Origin: a virus
IMG/VR virus record: IMGVR_UViG_3300029893_000005
Span: 1-64,000 of that record
Direction: 5' to 3' (one strand)
DNA: 64,000 nt
Positions within the stretch are counted from its first letter, which is position 1. The number at the start of each line of letters is the position of its first letter. A program made the translations under genes and the position numbers. Positions 847 to 47,365 of the stretch are shown here, piece after piece. The notes under the pieces are model-generated. The model worked only from the letters and a program-made list of their open reading frames with translations, searched no databases and had not been told where the DNA came from.

Positions 847-993
847 ATGGATATTGTTGAGTACATCCCGCTGATTGACCCACTCTCGCTGGTCGGCTCG
901 AAGACGCTGGACGAAGCGGAGATACCCGTTCGGAGGGTGTCGCTGGAAGATATTCGGCGTAGTATCGCTGAATCGAAAGAAAGGGTCCTATAG
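847..993 (+). CDS. 48-residue early protein, leaderless start
   Basis: ATG at 847 lies 7 bases after the -10 box of the operator-controlled promoter and has no ribosome binding site, so it should be read from a leaderless mRNA. The product begins MDIVEYIPLIDPLSLVGSK and ends IRRSIAESKERVL: an apolar start and a charged helical tail. It matches no family I know. It heads a tightly packed operon of small early genes that runs to 2814; one base separates its stop from the next ATG. Its position first in the operon suggests an early host-takeover or control role, which is inference only. Confidence 0.65.
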   Translation: MDIVEYIPLIDPLSLVGSKTLDEAEIPVRRVSLEDIRRSIAESKERVL

Positions 994-38116: not shown

Positions 38117-41100
38117 ATGACCCTGAACGACGTCCTTGCAGAGTGGATCCGTCAGAATTTAATCGCGGAGGGGGTACAGGAACACTTCGCCGCGTGGTAC
38201 GCTCATGATCTGGCGTTCGGCGGCGAGGAGGCTGTTTCCCTCTGGGATGATCTGCCGCCCGAGCAGCAAGTCGTCGCGGAGCGTTACGCAGGCATCTTGA
38301 ACGGTGTGTACGCCGGGAAGGACATGACGACTGCAGCCCAGGCCGTTCCCATTCCTCCGCAGGCCGTTGGGCTTGACTGGGAGGGGCTACAGGCGTCAGT
38401 GTTAGGACTTGACGACCCTCCCGACTTCCTAGAGTTCGATGACGTCACCGACGAGCAGGTTGGCAAGATAAACGCGCTTGCCCAGGCGGCTGAGGTCGGG
38501 CCCTTTGCGGCTATCGTGGGTACGCCAGTTCCTGCGGGGAGCCTGTCGGCACCCGCCAGCACGGAGGCGCTGCTGGCTGCAGTTCCCGATCAGGATCTGC
38601 AGATGCTGCACTACAAGGCCCTGGTTCTCGCCAACGGCGGGGCCATGCCGGCCCCCTACATCAGCGGCAAGAACTACAGCAAAGAAATCCTCGCCCTCAG
38701 TCAGAAGTACCAGAGTCAAGGAATCGGAGATGCCTCGGACAACTTCAGCGACCTGTACGGCAAAATTTTGCAAACGATCATCGGCCACACCCCGTTTACC
38801 CCGGACCACAATTATTTCGACGACTATTACGATCACGTCAAGATGCTGGCGGATCAGATCACTACGGGTATCGTGTACCCAGATACAGCCCTCGCCGAGG
38901 TAAATGGAGAAATTGCGCTGCAAGAACTCGAAGGCTGGAACGCGCCTGCCGCGCAGTTGGTGAAAGACCTCGTGTTCCAGTGGGGGGAAGACCACGGAGT
39001 CGCAACCCCGCTCAGCGTCGCCCCCTCTGCAGAAGATCATCTGGAGGTCGCCGTCAAGAATATTGTATTGCAAGACGTCGGACTGGGGAACGCGGCTACA
39101 ATCGTTGGCGATATCATGGATGCTGTCATTTACGGTGACGGAAGTTGGCATCAGGCGACTGAAAGCCTCAGCCCGCAAGCAAAACTGGCTCTGCACAAAG
39201 TCGTACAGGACTACGGTGCGGGGGCCTACGAGCCGGCAGCCCTGACGCAGAAAGTCACGTCCCCCACACCCGCGTTTCAGAATCCTCTGTCGGAAGCAGC
39301 CGGCCTCCCGAGGCCGTCCCGTATCCAGGAGGCGCTGTCGGACTACAGCGATTTGGACCTGACGCAGCGCATCCTGGATCCCCAGGCCCTCAGCCTGTTG
39401 TACGAGGAGGGGTACGTGGACGAGACGGAGCCGACTCCGCGGAATCGGCTGCCCTACCTCCCCACAGCCACGCTGGAGTACGCCCGTAAAGGGGCGCTCA
39501 ATGAGCCCTCGAAGTACAAGGACGAGGGGCTCAATCTGCTCAACCGTATCCTCACCGGGCAGGGGGGTCGTGCGACTCCGCCGCAGATCCCGTGGGAGAC
39601 GGTGCGATCCGGCATCGAGAAAGAAGCCGACAAGTTCCATATCCCCGCCTATCAGGCCCTCTTCGCTGACCTGGATGCGCTGCAGGAACAACACCCCGGC
39701 ATTCACGAGGCATTCCTCCTGCGGGACATGGAGAAAGCCTATCCCGCTCGTCTCGCCCAGTTGCGGGCACGGGGCGTCAAGAACCCCGAACGGTTCGTCC
39801 ACCCCGTCAACTTCAACCGGACGCTGCGGGACCTGACGACCCCCGGTGGCAGTCACGACTACGACACGATGGCGCGATACCTGCGGCTACACCACCCCGA
39901 GTTCATGGCGGCCCCGCACTGGGTCTTCGTCGACTCGGGGTACAGCGGCACCATCCCTAGCCGCATCATGGAGATGAACGAGGCGTTGAACCTCGGCAAA
40001 AACATCGACGTGCGGATGTTGAGCAGCAGCAGTGCGCCGTGGCAGGCGCCTTCGGTGCTCGACATTGGGATTCCCCGCGACGACATCGTAGAGAAGATCG
40101 AACACACCGCTCACCGCCGCGGCACCATCGAGGGGCTGGATCCGGCTACGCTGCAGCCCTACGCACCGCCGGTCACGCCTCCGGAAGAGGCCATGGTCAG
40201 TTACATGGAGCGGTACATCCGCAACGCATTCGAGGGGGAGCCCTTCCGCTACACCCCCCGCGTGTTCGCGGAACCGAGAAGTCTTGTCGGCCAGTTGGCG
40301 GCGTTGGCGGAGGCTATGAACCTCTCGCGGCAGTCGCCGGAGTGGGCCCCCGGATTCCCCGACCTGCTCATGTACGACACGGAGCATGGGCCCTACGGCT
40401 GGTACGACCTGGACGGCGGGAGGAACGCGGTCGACGTCAGCCGCTGGGAACCGCATCCCGACTACACGGCTCCGCATTCGAACGAGAATCCCGCCATCGT
40501 GTTGCAGCACCCCGAGACGGGGCAGCCCTTCTTCGTCAAGAGCACTCGTAACCCGATGATCGAGGCACTGGGCAGCAATCTGTACCGTGCGACGGGGCTG
40601 CCCTCCCCGGAGATCGCCCTGGCAAAGGGGATGCCGGGAGCCCGTCATCAGCAGCAACTCATCACCCCGTACCTACCGGGTATGAAGACGCTGAAGGAAG
40701 TGGCGAAGCGCGGTTCCGGCGACTGGCGGAACGTCCCTGCCATGGACCACCTGTCGACCATCGGGGCGGATTCCTGGCTGCTCAACCAGAGCCAGCACGG
40801 GAAGCAGTTCCTGCTGCCCGAGAATTTCGACTCGCTCGCGGGACTCGAAGGCCCAGGTTACAACAGCCTGATGCCGGGCAGGCAGGTAACCCCAACCCAC
40901 ATCGACTTCGGGGAGACGTTCTCCACCCGCCTGCCGTGGGCCAGCGAGACATGGTGGGAGCAGCAGCCATTCCACCCCGGTAATCCGGCCAGTCGGAACC
41001 TGTATGACCAGATGCTTGGGCGCACAGGAGGGTTGTTAGATCCGAAACTCACCCGCTCCGACTTCCTGAAAACAGGGCGCCTCCATATTATCCCCGAACT

Positions 41101-41974
41101 TAGTACAGACGAGGGGCGTACTAAGTTCGCCGAAAGCCTGGAACGCCCGTCGACCATCCCCGCCCCGCTGATTCACAGTCTTGTGAAGAATCACGGCTTC
41201 TCCCCCGAGATGGCGCAGCAACTGGTACGTCGAGCCCAGGCCATGGCAGGGACCGCCCAACGGATCCGCCAGAACGCACTGCCCGGATTCAGCGGACAGG
41301 TCATCCCCGGAATGGCCGGCGGGCTGGCGGCGCTGGCGCTCCTGGGCCTGCCCGCAGAAGCCGCGACGCCCGAGGATGCCGCACTGGCGGAAGCGGCCGG
41401 CGGGCCGAACCCCCTGCTGTACGGAGCGGGCGCGGCTCTCTTCGCCCTCGACCCAAAGGATTGGCGGGGCGGGGTCCCGGCGGTACAGCCCGCTCCGCTG
41501 GAGGACCAACTCCGCATGTACCGTGCGGGGGCGACGAAGTTGCCGGCTACGCCGGGTGCCGCGGGCGGCGGCTTCCGTCCTGACCCGAACATGGTGCGCA
41601 TCAACCCGGCCCCCACCTTCCGCGAAGGGCTGGGCAACCTGTTCCGCGGCGCTGCATCTCGCCTGGGCGGCGGCACAGGCCCGCACGGACTCAACGCCGG
41701 GCTGGCTGGGCTCGACCTCGCGCTCAACCCCCAGCACTACCAGGAAGCCCTGGAGCAGACCCCGCTGATCGGGTCGATCATCCGCGGGGGTCGGGAGTGG
41801 GGCGAGGCCGTGGACCGTGCGCGGGCCGAGGCACGTGAGGACGACCTGCGGCGGGCCGCCCTGTCGGAGGCCGCCTATCAGCGGTACCACGCTCGTAAGT
41901 ACCCGGGGCTCCGTGGGGGCTATACCCCCGAGGGTGTCTTCGACTACGCCGGCAGTAGCGGGGGCTCGTGGTGA
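38117..41974 (+). CDS. 1285-residue multi-domain protein with kinase-fold segment
   Basis: ATG 38117. Four parts are visible. Residues 1-390 are helical, with less GC-rich codon use than neighbouring genes. Residues 400-730 are unknown, including WVFVDSGYSGTIPSRI. Residues about 795-945 resemble the HipA/PI4-kinase-like fold: a strand with FFVKSTRNPMIEALGSNLYR (candidate ATP-binding Lys at about 807), LPSPEIAL, then ADSWLLNQSQHGKQFLL, where a catalytic loop with NxDRH would be expected, and HIDFGETF as the metal-binding motif. The C-terminus (about 1050 on) has one hydrophobic stretch (GGLAALALLGLPAEAA) and Ala/Gly/Pro tails. It is probably injected or membrane-associated. The altered loop suggests a pseudokinase or divergent enzyme. 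Confidence 0.55.
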   Translation: MTLNDVLAEWIRQNLIAEGVQEHFAAWYAHDLAFGGEEAVSLWDDLPPEQQVVAERYAGILNGVYAGKDMTTAAQAVPIPPQAVGLDWEGLQASVLGLDDPPDFLEFDDVTDEQVGKINALAQAAEVGPFAAIVGTPVPAGSLSAPASTEALLAAVPDQDLQMLHYKALVLANGGAMPAPYISGKNYSKEILALSQKYQSQGIGDASDNFSDLYGKILQTIIGHTPFTPDHNYFDDYYDHVKMLADQITTGIVYPDTALAEVNGEIALQELEGWNAPAAQLVKDLVFQWGEDHGVATPLSVAPSAEDHLEVAVKNIVLQDVGLGNAATIVGDIMDAVIYGDGSWHQATESLSPQAKLALHKVVQDYGAGAYEPAALTQKVTSPTPAFQNPLSEAAGLPRPSRIQEALSDYSDLDLTQRILDPQALSLLYEEGYVDETEPTPRNRLPYLPTATLEYARKGALNEPSKYKDEGLNLLNRILTGQGGRATPPQIPWETVRSGIEKEADKFHIPAYQALFADLDALQEQHPGIHEAFLLRDMEKAYPARLAQLRARGVKNPERFVHPVNFNRTLRDLTTPGGSHDYDTMARYLRLHHPEFMAAPHWVFVDSGYSGTIPSRIMEMNEALNLGKNIDVRMLSSSSAPWQAPSVLDIGIPRDDIVEKIEHTAHRRGTIEGLDPATLQPYAPPVTPPEEAMVSYMERYIRNAFEGEPFRYTPRVFAEPRSLVGQLAALAEAMNLSRQSPEWAPGFPDLLMYDTEHGPYGWYDLDGGRNAVDVSRWEPHPDYTAPHSNENPAIVLQHPETGQPFFVKSTRNPMIEALGSNLYRATGLPSPEIALAKGMPGARHQQQLITPYLPGMKTLKEVAKRGSGDWRNVPAMDHLSTIGADSWLLNQSQHGKQFLLPENFDSLAGLEGPGYNSLMPGRQVTPTHIDFGETFSTRLPWASETWWEQQPFHPGNPASRNLYDQMLGRTGGLLDPKLTRSDFLKTGRLHIIPELSTDEGRTKFAESLERPSTIPAPLIHSLVKNHGFSPEMAQQLVRRAQAMAGTAQRIRQNALPGFSGQVIPGMAGGLAALALLGLPAEAATPEDAALAEAAGGPNPLLYGAGAALFALDPKDWRGGVPAVQPAPLEDQLRMYRAGATKLPATPGAAGGGFRPDPNMVRINPAPTFREGLGNLFRGAASRLGGGTGPHGLNAGLAGLDLALNPQHYQEALEQTPLIGSIIRGGREWGEAVDRARAEAREDDLRRAALSEAAYQRYHARKYPGLRGGYTPEGVFDYAGSSGGSW

Positions 41975-42354: not shown

Positions 42355-42453
42355 GTGAACGAGGTGCTCTACGGCTGGCGCTACGGTCACCGCATCGTGG
42401 TCGTCCACCCGGAAGGCGACAAGTGGCGCTGCACCTACTTCTCGAACCAGTAG
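42355..42453 (+). CDS. 32-residue peptide at the end of the late block
   Basis: GTG 42355 with GAGGAGG about 8 bases upstream, stop at 42453. The product MNEVLYGWRYGHRIVVVHPE continues GDKWRCTYFSNQ: a compact beta-hairpin-like basic peptide. The good ribosome site and a position 5 bases before the terminator argue that it is real. No family recognised. Confidence 0.55.
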   Translation: MNEVLYGWRYGHRIVVVHPEGDKWRCTYFSNQ

Positions 42454-42458
42454 AAAGC

Positions 42459-42493
42459 AAGAAGCCCGCACTCCCGAGAGAGGCGGGCTTCTT
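42459..42493. terminator. Bidirectional terminator
   Basis: AAGAAGCCCGC (42459-42469) and GCGGGCTTCTT (42483-42493) form a perfect 11-bp stem. It can end the rightward late block, which stops at 42453, and the leftward RNA from 42692. U-rich ends are present on both strands as CTTCTT, though not as pure T-runs. Confidence 0.85.
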
Positions 42494-42692
42494 CACGCCA
42501 TCCGCGTTCACCGCTACCCGCCAGTTTCCTGGTTTCACGGTCAGGGCTGCGCCACCCTGGGTATGCTACTCGCGGCTGTAGGGGCGAGGCTTCGTACCTA
42601 CCAAGCACGGTCGACCGGCAGAGCCGGCGTTCCTATACCCTCGCCCAACCCACTGAGTCTCTGCAGCGACACTCGGTGCTAGGGTTACTACG
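42459..42692 (-). ncRNA. Putative structured non-coding RNA (about 230 nt)
   Basis: Leftward transcript with its own promoter (-10 at 42704-42699) and terminator (42493-42459), containing no supported gene. Reading from the promoter, the RNA can form a 5' stem-loop (AACC..CAC.GAGT / ACTC.GTG..GGTT), an 8-bp helix (GGGCGAGG with CCTCGCCC) enclosing the hairpin CCGGC-TCT-GCCGG, the hairpin CTAC..GTAG, CAGGG..CCCTG, CCAG-GAAA-CTGG with a GNRA tetraloop, and the terminator stem. It is not a tRNA, tmRNA, SRP RNA or RNase P RNA by any signature I can see. Transcription is inferred, not shown. Confidence 0.6.
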
Positions 42693-42698
42693 CAGGAT

Positions 42699-42745
42699 AT
42701 CTTACACCGACTCCTCGGACTTGTCAACCCCTTCTTGTGAAGAAG
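42699..42745 (-). promoter_or_regulatory. Leftward promoter of the structured RNA, with palindromic operator
   Basis: On the minus strand, TTGACA (42727-42722), 17 bases, TAAGAT (42704-42699). Just upstream is CTTCTTGTGAAGAAG (42731-42745), a perfect-armed member of the operator family. The promoter lies inside the 3' end of the gene at 42702-43067, and its only downstream target is the RNA at 42459-42692. Confidence 0.75.
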
Positions 42746-43067
42746 TTCGGGGGATGGGCATGGAGTCCACCTTTCCCCCGGGCGTGAGGCGGAAACGAGC
42801 CTCGGCCCCCTTCTCCTCGTCGAAGAACCAGATTTCCCCGGGGGGCACGTTCTTGCTGCGCCGCACCACGGTCCCGCCCAGGGCGGACAGGAACTGGCTG
42901 GCGGTGCAGCAAGGGATGGTGTCGGCGAAGTCCCAGATCGACTCGGCCGGGATCTGACTCCAGCATCGGTAGTGGGCCACCCCCTTCGGGATGACCACCA
43001 TCTGGGTCTCCGCAGGGTCCTCGGGACCTCCGCACACGCAGCAGGGACGGGGGAAGCCGACCGACAT
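42702..43067 (-). CDS. 121-residue small zinc-type protein
   Basis: ATG 43067. The N-terminus has CCVCGGP, and later HYRCW and CCTAS; the spacing is compatible with a zinc site. The remainder (IWFFDEEKGAEARFRLTPGG) is a short beta region with a disordered acidic tail. No family recognised. It is the last gene of a leftward run of small genes, and its 3' end holds the promoter and operator of the non-coding RNA. Confidence 0.55.
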   Translation of the reverse strand: MSVGFPRPCCVCGGPEDPAETQMVVIPKGVAHYRCWSQIPAESIWDFADTIPCCTASQFLSALGGTVVRRSKNVPPGEIWFFDEEKGAEARFRLTPGGKVDSMPIPRTSSQEGVDKSEESV

Positions 43068-43919: not shown

Positions 43920-44099
43920 TCACGGCTCCTTCGGGGAGAGAAGTACGACCTCTGACGTAAGCCCGTTGGCCCGACACATGCACTGAAACCCCAGCGCACC
44001 GTGTTCTCGGGCGCTGGAGATGTCCTCCTCGGACAGGATGTGGTCCCTACGGCAGGAGACACATCGGTACAAGCCGGGCACCAAGTCCTCGATCTTCAT
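43920..44099 (-). CDS. 59-residue zinc-ribbon protein
   Basis: ATG 44099 overlaps the upstream stop as ATGA. Two Cys pairs, YRCVSCRRD near the start and FQCMCRANG later, make one zinc ribbon of about 40 residues. No family name. The layout is like that of the other small zinc proteins of this phage. Confidence 0.55.
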   Translation of the reverse strand: MKIEDLVPGLYRCVSCRRDHILSEEDISSAREHGALGFQCMCRANGLTSEVVLLSPKEP

Positions 44100-44386
44100 A
44101 GGGCTCCACCACCGTGCTCGGTCTCCTGTTGTTCCCGCTTGTAGTCGGCCACCTTCAGCCACAACTCGAAGGCCTCGCGCAAGATGTCGGGCCGCGAGAT
44201 GTTGAGGTAGCGCACGTACCCTTCGATGCGGTCGAGTGTCTTCTTCGGCACCACCACGATGACCTTGACACCGTTCTTGATCTGGCGGCAGCGCAGGCAC
44301 ATGCAGGTGGTCTTGTGGTCGTACTGCTTGCCGCGGCTGGCAACGCAGGAAACGCACTTGCAGTCGGGGCGGGGCAGGTGGCTCAT
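44096..44386 (-). CDS. Zinc-ribbon plus ribbon-helix-helix regulator candidate
   Basis: 96 residues. The N-terminal 35 carry Cys pairs CKCVSC and CMCLRC, a zinc ribbon. Residues about 40-82 follow the ribbon-helix-helix pattern: strand KVIVVVPKKTLDRIEGYV, helix, turn NISRPDILREAFELWL, helix. Such domains bind palindromic DNA as dimers, which suits the palindromic operators of this window. It is first in the leftward small-gene operon. The fusion of the two modules is unusual. DNA binding is inferred only. Confidence 0.6.
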   Translation of the reverse strand: MSHLPRPDCKCVSCVASRGKQYDHKTTCMCLRCRQIKNGVKVIVVVPKKTLDRIEGYVRYLNISRPDILREAFELWLKVADYKREQQETEHGGGAL

Positions 44387-44537: not shown

Positions 44538-45494
44538 ATGGCTGCCTCGACTGCCAACGACAAGTTCAGCCACCTGAGCCCCACCACCGTCTACGCCCTG
44601 CAAAGTGCCGCGGACGCCAACGGGAACGGCAACGCCCTGGACGTAGGGGGCACCCCCTACGTCGGTGTTCAAGTGGTGGGCGACGCCTTCAACGGCACCG
44701 TCAACTTCGAGGGCTCGATCGACGGGGACAACTGGGTGTCAGTCCAGGCCCTCAATGTGGCGACAGGCGCCGTGGTTACCACGACCACAGCAGACGGGGT
44801 GTTCAACATCCCCACCGGCGTGCTGTCGAAGGTGCGAGCCCGCATCTCGGGGTATGTTGCCGGCACGGTTACCGTCACGGCCCGGGCCGCGGTTCACGGC
44901 AGCCGCGACATCGCGTCAGTTGGCGGCGGTACGGTTGACACGGAGTTGGGGGCGGCGATTGCCGCAGCCGACAACATGGCCAACCCCACGGCGCCTCAAG
45001 TGCTCGCGCACGAGATGGTCTGGGACGGCGCCACCTGGGACCGGCAAACGCAGCCGCTGACCGACGCTCAGTTACGGGCCGCGGATGTCCCGGTCACAGC
45101 ATCTCAGGCGACGCATGACGGCCTGAACGCCAACGCCAACCTCCAGGTGGCCGATGCGGATGTGTCGAACACGAACCCCGTCCCCACGAAGGGTACTACT
45201 GTCGCTACGCTCAACACGCAGAAGACGGTCACGGTGGACACCACGGCCAACGGCATTGAGATCCTGGCGGCCAATGCCGACCGCAAGGGGTTCATCATCA
45301 CGAACAACGGCGCCACCGATTGCTACCTCGGGGACACCACCCTCACCTCCGGGGCGGCGCCCGCTGCTAATGGCGGTATCATCTGCAAGGCCGGTGGCGG
45401 TGCCGTTTCGGGCAGCCAGATGGACGGCTACACAGGCGCCATTCACGGTATCACAGAGGCGGGAAGTACGGTAGTGGGGGTGTGGGAATGGTAG
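44538..45494 (+). CDS. Beta-rich virion protein
   Basis: ATG 44538. The 318 residues are beta-rich and Thr/Ala/Gly/Asn-rich: PYVGVQVVGDAFNGTVNFEG, SKVRARISGYVAGTVTVTAR, and a C-terminal jelly-roll-like part with ANGIEILAANADRKGFIITN, NGATDCYLGDTTLTS. The end is often seen in phage structural proteins that attach to virions. It opens a rightward island between leftward blocks, under a promoter with late-type leader features. No precise role. Confidence 0.6.
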   Translation: MAASTANDKFSHLSPTTVYALQSAADANGNGNALDVGGTPYVGVQVVGDAFNGTVNFEGSIDGDNWVSVQALNVATGAVVTTTTADGVFNIPTGVLSKVRARISGYVAGTVTVTARAAVHGSRDIASVGGGTVDTELGAAIAAADNMANPTAPQVLAHEMVWDGATWDRQTQPLTDAQLRAADVPVTASQATHDGLNANANLQVADADVSNTNPVPTKGTTVATLNTQKTVTVDTTANGIEILAANADRKGFIITNNGATDCYLGDTTLTSGAAPAANGGIICKAGGGAVSGSQMDGYTGAIHGITEAGSTVVGVWEW

Positions 45495-45775
45495 TTTCCA
45501 ACCCAAGCGGAGGAGCCGCAGCCGTTTATCCCTGGGTCATTGACGTCAATCCGGTTCTGACGCCCTCAGCGAACACGAACTGGAGCACGCTGAACCTCCC
45601 ATCCGTCTACGGCAACGACTCGGCCGGCAATGCCCTGTTGTACGCCGCTATTGACAGTGCGGGTACTCAGAACGACGACTACTCTCTGGTAACGCTACGG
45701 ATGGCGTCCAAGAACGCCTCAGCATCGTCGTATCAGGGCACGCTACAGTGGATACGCTTCCGGAGGACTGCGTAG
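45488..45775 (+). CDS. 95-residue small structural protein
   Basis: ATG 45488 overlaps the previous stop by a few bases. The texture is beta-rich with Asn/Ser/Thr (AVYPWVIDVNPVLTPSANTN, YSLVTLRMASKNASASSYQG). It may form a domain of, or a partner to, the preceding virion protein. No family recognised. Confidence 0.5.
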   Translation: MVVSNPSGGAAAVYPWVIDVNPVLTPSANTNWSTLNLPSVYGNDSAGNALLYAAIDSAGTQNDDYSLVTLRMASKNASASSYQGTLQWIRFRRTA

Positions 45776-45777
45776 GG

Positions 45778-45999
45778 ATGAACTTCGACATCAAATGGCT
45801 GGACTATGGGGCCCTGGGAGCCGCCTTCGGGGTGCTGGCTTACGCTCTCCACATGCTGAACAAGGTCATCCGCATGCACGAACAGTACATGGACCGGCTG
45901 ATCGGAGTCGTCGACAAGAACGCTACGGCCAACACCAAACTCTCGGTCGGGGTGAACAATCTGGTTGAGGCGCATCTGCGCCAGGACCGGGAGGAGTGA
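45778..45999 (+). CDS. Holin-like small membrane protein
   Basis: 73 residues from ATG 45778, GGAGG 11 bases upstream. A short N-terminal part is followed by one membrane segment (YGALGAAFGVLAYALHMLNK) and a helical soluble tail (VIRMHEQYMDRLIGVVDKNA...). One-span proteins with a coiled tail, encoded near lysis functions, can act as holins or lysis regulators, but the M23 peptidase lies 8 kb away. Membrane location is well supported; the holin role is a guess. Confidence 0.5.
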   Translation: MNFDIKWLDYGALGAAFGVLAYALHMLNKVIRMHEQYMDRLIGVVDKNATANTKLSVGVNNLVEAHLRQDREE

Positions 46000-46005
46000 T
46001 ACGTC

Positions 46006-46185
46006 ATGCTGCGGCTATTCTTGAACGGGGGCAGCAAGCGGCTGGAGGAGGCTCTGGAGCGGTACGAGAAATCTACCGAGGAGAAGGAGGACGTCTGCCG
46101 CCGGGTTCAGGCCTGCGTACGGGTGCGTGCTCCTCGACGCAAGAAGGAGGCACCCCATGACACAGCAGCCCCTGACCGACGCTGA
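46006..46185 (+). CDS. 59-residue basic helical protein
   Basis: ATG 46006 follows GGAGGAGTGATACGTC, a junction like those in the early operon. The product is MLRLFLNGGSKRLEEALERY, then a long charged helix with Cys (VCRRVQACVRVRAPRRKK) and a disordered tail. It overlaps the next gene by 29 bases in another frame. Translation is plausible but not proven. Confidence 0.45.
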   Translation: MLRLFLNGGSKRLEEALERYEKSTEEKEDVCRRVQACVRVRAPRRKKEAPHDTAAPDRR

Positions 46186-46786
46186 GATATCCCTGCTCCT
46201 GGCGAAGGAGAGCCTGGAGAGCCCGGCCGCAGCCAAGATCGGCCCCACCTCTGACCTGCGGCAGAGCGTGACCGACGCCTTCACAGCCGCCGCGGACATG
46301 CTGAAGGACTGCCCCATCACGGTCCGTGGTCGGGACGAATTCCACAGCAAGGAACTCGTCTACCACCCGCACACCGGGCTCCAGGTCTGCGAGCGCAACG
46401 GCGGGGGCGTACCCTGGCAGAAGACCCCCGAGACGGTGCTGGCCGCATGTATGCCGCTGCTGGAGCGCCTCAAGCGGATGCATGCGGAACTGGTCCCCAA
46501 GCATCAGACTCAGGTGCTGGTCAACATCTCCCAGGCGGTGATCGATACCGCGGCGCTGGACGCCAAGCCGGCCGAGCCGGTGCTGGAGGAGCCGAAGGAG
46601 GAGCCCGCCCCCAAGAAGGTGGCGGTGGAGGCTCCCAAGGAGGACGACGTGCCAGAGGTTCCGGAAGTCCTCACCCTCGACGACGCCCTGTCGAAGGCAG
46701 CCAAGACCCAGACCACCGGCCGCGCCGCTGTCGGCAAGAAGCCGAAGGCCCCCCGAGGCGGGGGTGCGAAGGGCGGTCGTCGCTAG
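46157..46786 (+). CDS. 209-residue protein with Lys/Pro/Glu-rich tail
   Basis: ATG 46157 with GGAGG 7 bases upstream is preferred over an upstream start. The first 130 residues appear folded and helical (LTDAEISLLLAKESLESPAA, ETVLAACMPLLERLKRMHAE). The tail (130-209) is Pro/Glu/Lys-rich and disordered, ending in a basic Gly/Arg stretch (KPKAPRGGGAKGGRR). It is the last gene of the rightward island; a strong terminator follows. No family recognised. Confidence 0.5.
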   Translation: MTQQPLTDAEISLLLAKESLESPAAAKIGPTSDLRQSVTDAFTAAADMLKDCPITVRGRDEFHSKELVYHPHTGLQVCERNGGGVPWQKTPETVLAACMPLLERLKRMHAELVPKHQTQVLVNISQAVIDTAALDAKPAEPVLEEPKEEPAPKKVAVEAPKEDDVPEVPEVLTLDDALSKAAKTQTTGRAAVGKKPKAPRGGGAKGGRR

Positions 46787-46823: not shown

Positions 46824-47066
46824 TCAGCCCTCTCCTGGAAACGGGAGGGGGTTCTTTTTCTCCTGGGTGAAGCGGATGTTCAAGTCCTGGATGGCGCTCA
46901 TCGTGCTGCGTAGTGCGTCCTGCATGTCCCACAGGTCCTGCTGTGTGATGTCGAGCCCGACGCGGGCCTCGTACTCCTCTGGACCGTCCTCGGGGACGCC
47001 CCCGAGTTCGGTATAGCACTCCCGGCAGAACAGCATCTTGCTGGTGCCGTGCTCACAGGTCCTCAC
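46824..47066 (-). CDS. 80-residue zinc-type protein
   Basis: ATG 47066, overlapping the end of the preceding leftward gene. Cys at MRTCEH and CRECY near the start could bind zinc with a His (CEHG...CREC). The rest is acidic and helical (EYEARVGLDITQQDLWDMQD, ALRSTMSAIQDLNIRFTQEK). No family recognised. It is the end of the leftward block from 47399, its last codons lying in the terminator of the opposite strand. Confidence 0.5.
   Translation of the reverse strand: MRTCEHGTSKMLFCRECYTELGGVPEDGPEEYEARVGLDITQQDLWDMQDALRSTMSAIQDLNIRFTQEKKNPLPFPGEG
46828..46859 (+). terminator. Intrinsic terminator of the rightward island
   Basis: CCCTCTCCTG (46828-46837), loop GAAA, CGGGAGGGGG (46842-46851): a 10-bp stem with a GNRA tetraloop, then TTCTTTTT. 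It overlaps the 3' end of the leftward gene at 46824-47066. Confidence 0.88.
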
Positions 47067-47365
47067 TTCCGCTTGGTCGCCTTCTTCTTGGTGGGGGCGG
47101 CTCTGCGCTTCGGCTTGGCCACCACCTTCGGGGCTTGGGCAGCTCTCGACGACCGCTTGCGGGGGGCGGGCCTGGGGGCGCCTTCGTCTACGACGAGCTG
47201 CTCGGTGGGGTTGGCCTTCATGTAGGCGACGCCCAGGCTATTGACGAAGCGCGACAGCGACAGCCCGCGGGCACGGGCATCCATCTTCAGCCGTGCGTGT
47301 ACCTCCGCGTCCAGGAAGACGGTGGCGCACACGCCCTTGTTCGAGTAGATCGGACCACGACCCAT
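47063..47365 (-). CDS. Ribbon-helix-helix protein with basic tail
   Basis: ATG 47365, preceded by GGAGG. Residues about 12-52 follow the ribbon-helix-helix pattern: strand VCATVFLDAEVHARL, helix KMDARARGL, turn and helix SLSRFVNSLGVAYMKAN. The C-terminal 40 residues are Lys/Arg/Ala/Pro-rich (APRKRSSRAAQAPKVV, RRAAPTKKKATKRK), like a histone H1 tail. The gene is under an operator-containing promoter and could be an autoregulator or DNA-coating protein. It is a second candidate for binding the ATCTTGTGAAGAT sites. Confidence 0.6.
   Translation of the reverse strand: MGRGPIYSNKGVCATVFLDAEVHARLKMDARARGLSLSRFVNSLGVAYMKANPTEQLVVDEGAPRPAPRKRSSRAAQAPKVVAKPKRRAAPTKKKATKRK

Follow-up and report, generated by a model that had tools for sequence, protein, structure and literature searches.

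The window analyzed here is the first 64 kb of a 79,468-bp IMG/VR virus record, which represents an unclassified phage. The terminase, portal, and major capsid proteins of the record match phage families, and the closest GenBank counterparts of its terminase and capsid proteins are less than 30% identical. Genes called with a codon model fall into two groups: late, structural genes, which occupy the plus strand as far as position 42453, and replication and early genes, most of which are on the minus strand between 79049 and 42702; the exception is a plus-strand block at 44538-46786. The RNA locus is a 248-bp convergent gap (42454-42701). The first late gene toward it, on the plus strand, has its 3' end at 42453, beyond the terminator stem, and the gene on the other side, 42702-43067, is the last one in a small minus-strand cluster (44386-42702). 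The 121-aa protein encoded by 42702-43067 has no Pfam or PHROG match and no relative in the collections searched. There is no tRNA in the 64-kb window, and there are no CRISPR-like direct repeats in the RNA region. The features of the locus, all on the minus strand, are as follows.

42702..43067, minus strand: upstream gene encoding 121 aa with paired cysteines (codon model)
42731..42745, minus strand: palindromic operator CTTCTTCACAAGAAG (from the sequence)
42733-42743, minus strand: operator core TCTTCACAAGA, one of 7 exact copies in the genome
42699..42727, minus strand: sigma70-like promoter TTGACA-N17-TAAGAT with 10/12 consensus bases (promoter scan)
42459..42692, minus strand: predicted untranslated transcript of ~233 nt, its ends predicted from promoter and terminator
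42646-42639/42589-42582, minus strand: 8-bp helix GGGCGAGG/CCTCGCCC (from the sequence)
42627-42615, minus strand: hairpin CCGGC-TCT-GCCGG (from the sequence)
42582..42646, minus strand: possible three-way junction, the 8-bp helix closing around hairpins 42627-42615 and 42609-42593 (pair probabilities mostly 0.9-1.0)
42521..42532, minus strand: hairpin CCAG-GAAA-CTGG with a GNRA loop (from the sequence; pair probabilities 0.94-0.99)
42459..42493, minus strand: intrinsic terminator with an 11-bp stem, 42493-42483/42469-42459 (-24.4 kcal/mol)

The promoter, the palindrome, the 8-bp stem, the two hairpins, and the 11-bp terminator had been picked out in an earlier note on this DNA, and all of them lie at the positions given there. 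The operator ties the locus to the rest of the genome. Its core, TCTTCACAAGA, occurs in 7 exact copies in 79 kb, compared with ~0.015 expected from the dinucleotide content, all of them on the minus strand (41179, 42733, 51108, 57962, 61978, 66159, and 74059). Promoters are located at 6 of these 7 copies, and the operator or a near copy is present in 9 of the 11 best sigma70-like promoters of the promoter scan; the eleven are our selection of scan matches with 9 to 12 consensus bases, weaker intragenic matches having been set aside. The operator usually lies within the -35/-10 spacer, a position in which a protein bound to it would obstruct RNA polymerase. For the promoters at 42727 and 57959, it is instead just upstream of the -35 element. 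Compared with the commonest form, the operator at 42733 has both outer bases changed; the changes are complementary, and the symmetry is kept. The operator-bearing promoters mostly precede replication and early genes, and because its members include the promoters of such genes we call the regulon early. Early control of the RNA, which had been proposed before, can fairly be inferred from the genes of this regulon.

The seventh exact copy of the operator (41179-41189, minus strand) is inside the late gene 38117-41974 and has no promoter nearby. Polymerases reading leftward past the end of the RNA gene would meet this site, which may serve as a roadblock. Another locus, 47063-47365 on the minus strand, encodes a ribbon-helix-helix-like protein with a basic tail and has a promoter that contains an imperfect copy of the operator, which makes this protein a candidate for the regulator of the operator regulon. 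Its match to a ribbon-helix-helix Pfam family is below the cut-off, and its predicted structure has the strand-helix-helix order at low confidence (mean pLDDT, 62). For a second ribbon-helix-helix candidate, 44096-44386, the predicted structure is unusable (mean pLDDT, 46).

The promoter of the RNA locus has no gene to serve. Its pattern has 2 matches in 64 kb, where 0.01 is expected, and it overlaps the last codons and the stop of 42702-43067, with the operator also embedded in the last codons. Each of the other ten listed promoters has a gene start at a distance of -8 to 158 nt from its predicted transcription start, and the promoter at 42727 is the only listed one that lacks a gene start within 160 nt; the nearest minus-strand gene ahead of it is 38 kb off. 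At 847-993 (plus strand), 4152 (minus strand), and 51087 (minus strand), start codons lie nearly on the predicted transcription starts, and such near-zero leaders suggest leaderless or very short-leader mRNAs and a host able to translate them.

The predicted transcript overlaps no gene, and coding signal is absent from all six frames of the gap at 42454-42701. The two best small open reading frames, on the minus strand and of 24 and 57 codons, score below the 5th percentile of true frames, and neither has a Shine-Dalgarno sequence; the shorter starts with GTG at 42672, and the longer runs through the terminator. A search of the window and of the rest of the record against Rfam 15 returned nothing above the gathering threshold, in agreement with the earlier remark that no common RNA family fits. 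A relaxed search of the RNA stretch gave sub-threshold matches only, the best of which on the minus strand was mostly due to the terminator hairpin.

The terminator stem, AAGAAGCCCGC/GCGGGCTTCTT, is followed by GCTTTCTACT on the minus strand, and by our criteria it is among the few hairpin-plus-T-tail sites in the genome. Because the tail is T-rich on the minus strand only (the plus strand side reads CACGCCATCC), the terminator more likely serves the RNA and the upstream gene cluster than the late operon. Termination may be partial, as the T-tail is interrupted (TTCTTGCTTTC). The operator common to at least 8 other promoters, the promoter without a gene, and the direction of the T-tail all uphold the view that the RNA stands alone, with an operator-controlled promoter and a terminator of its own. 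We regard the unit as a candidate for a well-bounded small RNA (sRNA) gene, and the case for operator control is stronger than the earlier note stated.

The description of this RNA as structured fared less well, as it matches shuffled sequence both in stability and in the number of stems. The MFE z-score is -1.79 with the terminator included; once the terminator is removed, it is -0.33 to -0.44, the same as the average of 398 genome windows (-0.40). There are 17 stems of at least 5 bp versus 15 expected from shuffles, a stem of at least 8 bp turns up in 22% of the shuffles, and the ensemble diversity of the RNA without the terminator is ordinary and the same as that of shuffled sequence. Taken as a whole and without its terminator, the RNA is neither more stable nor better defined in its fold than shuffled sequence. 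High-probability helices are usual at a G+C content of 63%. Only the sub-domain at 42582-42646 looks mildly unusual, with a z-score of -2.35, and it was chosen after the fact. Since a functional fold can have ordinary energy, these data do not disprove a structure; they remove the evidence for it. The promoter pattern and the operator are beyond chance, and the internal stems are not.

By blastn, no homologue of the RNA was found in GenBank phages or plasmids, and no copy was found in 29 distantly related viral records, which gave three chance matches of 14-20 nt. These 29 records came from a TerL-alignment scan, in which the best identity was 37% among the matches listed and an MCP relative (22-30% identity) was present in only 2 of the records. 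A GTDB genome scan with a TerL segment gave three weak matches. Viral-contig scans with the 121-aa neighbor, a 1285-aa late protein, TerL, MCP, and a DNA-polymerase motif concatenate returned no relatives; the single-protein scans could detect only close relatives because they used exact 8-residue patterns. A degenerate DNA-polymerase pattern led to one contig, of 47.5% G+C, which was rejected, the polymerase being the sole match in the part examined. The operator-promoter pattern had 14 matches in viral contigs, which we judged to be due to chance because there was a single site per contig, most contigs were of low or medium G+C content, and the lone gene match, to a helicase, was weak. Near relatives of the phage may be missing from the collections searched. 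As no homologue was found in phages, plasmids, or the 29 viral records, the body of the RNA carries no sign of selection.

Other regions of the record also contain regulatory signals. The 539-bp gap at 68166-68704 has a perfect 12/12 sigma70 promoter at 68358 without an operator, a strong terminator at 68620, a perfect DnaA box at 68413, and a near one at 68402, and is a possible replication origin. The large gap at the left end (1-994) has a strong plus-strand terminator at 217, a TTGCGT-N17-TATAAT site near 467, and an operator promoter at 811, together with a second repeated motif, GATACTAC, at ~472 and ~802 and inverted at ~959; this gap may hold another untranslated RNA and the sites of a second regulator. 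Near the right end, outside the called genes, 79105-79301 is a tandem repeat rich in GCAGCATCGG / GCAGCCCAGG.

What, then, is the function of this locus? We favor, with moderate confidence, the explanation that it is a gene for a small untranslated RNA in the operator-controlled early regulon of the phage and that this sRNA probably acts in trans. According to this model, a phage DNA-binding protein, probably a dimer because its site is a palindrome, would bind TCTTCACAAGA beside the promoter, and the same protein would set both the RNA unit and the promoters of the replication and early genes. With the operator unoccupied, host RNA polymerase would start near 42692, stop at the hairpin at 42459, and free an RNA of ~233 nt. 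We infer that the RNA is transcribed and that the protein is a repressor, not an activator. Like other phage sRNAs, the RNA would probably act in trans during infection, either base-pairing with a host mRNA or attaching to a protein; its trans action and its target are guesses. Pairing of the RNA with phage translation starts is no better than that of shuffled RNA, which makes a host mRNA or a protein the likelier target. The roles in packaging, RNA polymerase control, or defense evasion that had been put forward for the RNA are guesses.

A sharper form of this explanation, not an alternative to it, would be a new structured class of phage RNA that needs the fold of the three-way junction and the GNRA hairpin for its job. 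The high pair probabilities of the local helices (mostly 0.9-1.0), the z-score of -2.35 for 42582-42646, and the lack of an Rfam match are consistent with such a class. However, the whole RNA cannot be told from its shuffles by energy, number of stems, or ensemble diversity, stems of this kind are common at 63% G+C, and no homologue was found, hence no covariation, and we find this version rather doubtful. It is less likely still that a new class of folded RNA, turned on with the replication genes via a newly recognized operator, hits a host factor in a lineage that has no close relatives in the collections.

The chief rival explanation of function holds that the act of transcription itself matters and not the RNA, with leftward polymerases at the convergent junction blocking or opposing transcription of the late operon, or running on antisense to late genes while the early promoters are on. 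The promoter at 42727 indeed faces the 3' end of the late operon, and the promoter-less operator copy at 41179 lies farther along the same leftward path, but any polymerase leaving the promoter would meet a hairpin with a minus-strand T-tail before it reached the first late gene, and only a leaky terminator would let the RNA unit overlap a late gene. We consider this rival improbable. The same grade applies to the locus being a relic, in which the promoter and operator of a lost gene have outlived it and the stretch is now functionless: neither structure nor coding signal nor a homologue was detected, but operator, promoter, and terminator are intact, paired changes have kept the operator symmetric, and gaps in phage genomes are mostly short. 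The promoter could also serve a very short protein overlooked by the codon model, for which the 24-codon GTG frame at 42672 is available and which recalls the start codons near the predicted starts at 847 (plus strand), 4152 (minus strand), and 51087 (minus strand). The low score of the 24-codon frame (below the 5th percentile of true frames), its lack of a Shine-Dalgarno sequence, and the passage of the 57-codon frame through the terminator make such a protein very unlikely.

In metagenomic phages, non-coding RNAs readily escape notice because gene callers search for proteins. Our analysis provides a workable rule, namely, to find the repeated operator of a phage, list its promoters, and pick the one without a gene. 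Applied to this little-annotated lineage, the rule yields a candidate RNA gene with sharp boundaries and an operator regulon that comprises at least 9 promoters. Should the proposed sRNA prove functional, it would join the small set of phage sRNAs linked to early lytic control.

The candidate RNA resembles the OOP and 6S RNAs of phage lambda in being a short unit that runs from a promoter to an intrinsic terminator. OOP runs antisense to a gene, and 6S forms the leader of the late operon. We rejected an OOP-type antisense RNA because no gene on the opposite strand overlaps (the nearest plus-strand gene ends at 42453), and a 6S-type late leader because no same-strand operon follows the terminator, the next minus-strand gene being 38 kb away. 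With the help of Hfq, the phage sRNAs VpdS (phage VP882) and PreS (lambda) act in trans on known host targets (PMC12197685). They serve as the model for the proposed trans action; the use of Hfq and the known targets are theirs.

The stoperators of Cluster A mycobacteriophages are many genome-wide copies of one repressor site, mostly in one orientation relative to transcription (PMC6550527). The operator described here is likewise one site repeated genome-wide and mostly oriented one way; unlike stoperators, 6 of its 7 exact copies are at promoters, and the site is nearly palindromic. In phages L5, D29, and StarStuff, the repressor-controlled early promoter Pleft gives rise to a non-coding RNA that is abundant and stable, and the region of this RNA is toxic to Mycobacterium smegmatis (PMC5712189). 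In L5 and D29 the RNA, detected by RNA-seq and Northern blotting, derives from a transcribed region of ~500 bp at the extreme right end of the genome (PMC5712189), whereas the candidate RNA, of ~233 nt, lies at a convergent junction in the middle of the record, is predicted from the sequence only, and has no sequence match in GenBank phages, so that neither the extreme-end position nor homology is shared. The Pleft RNA of L5 and D29 is nevertheless the closest functional parallel, an untranslated RNA from an operator-controlled early promoter in a high-G+C phage: here, too, the promoter carries the repeated operator of the phage, and the predicted transcript contains no translated frame.
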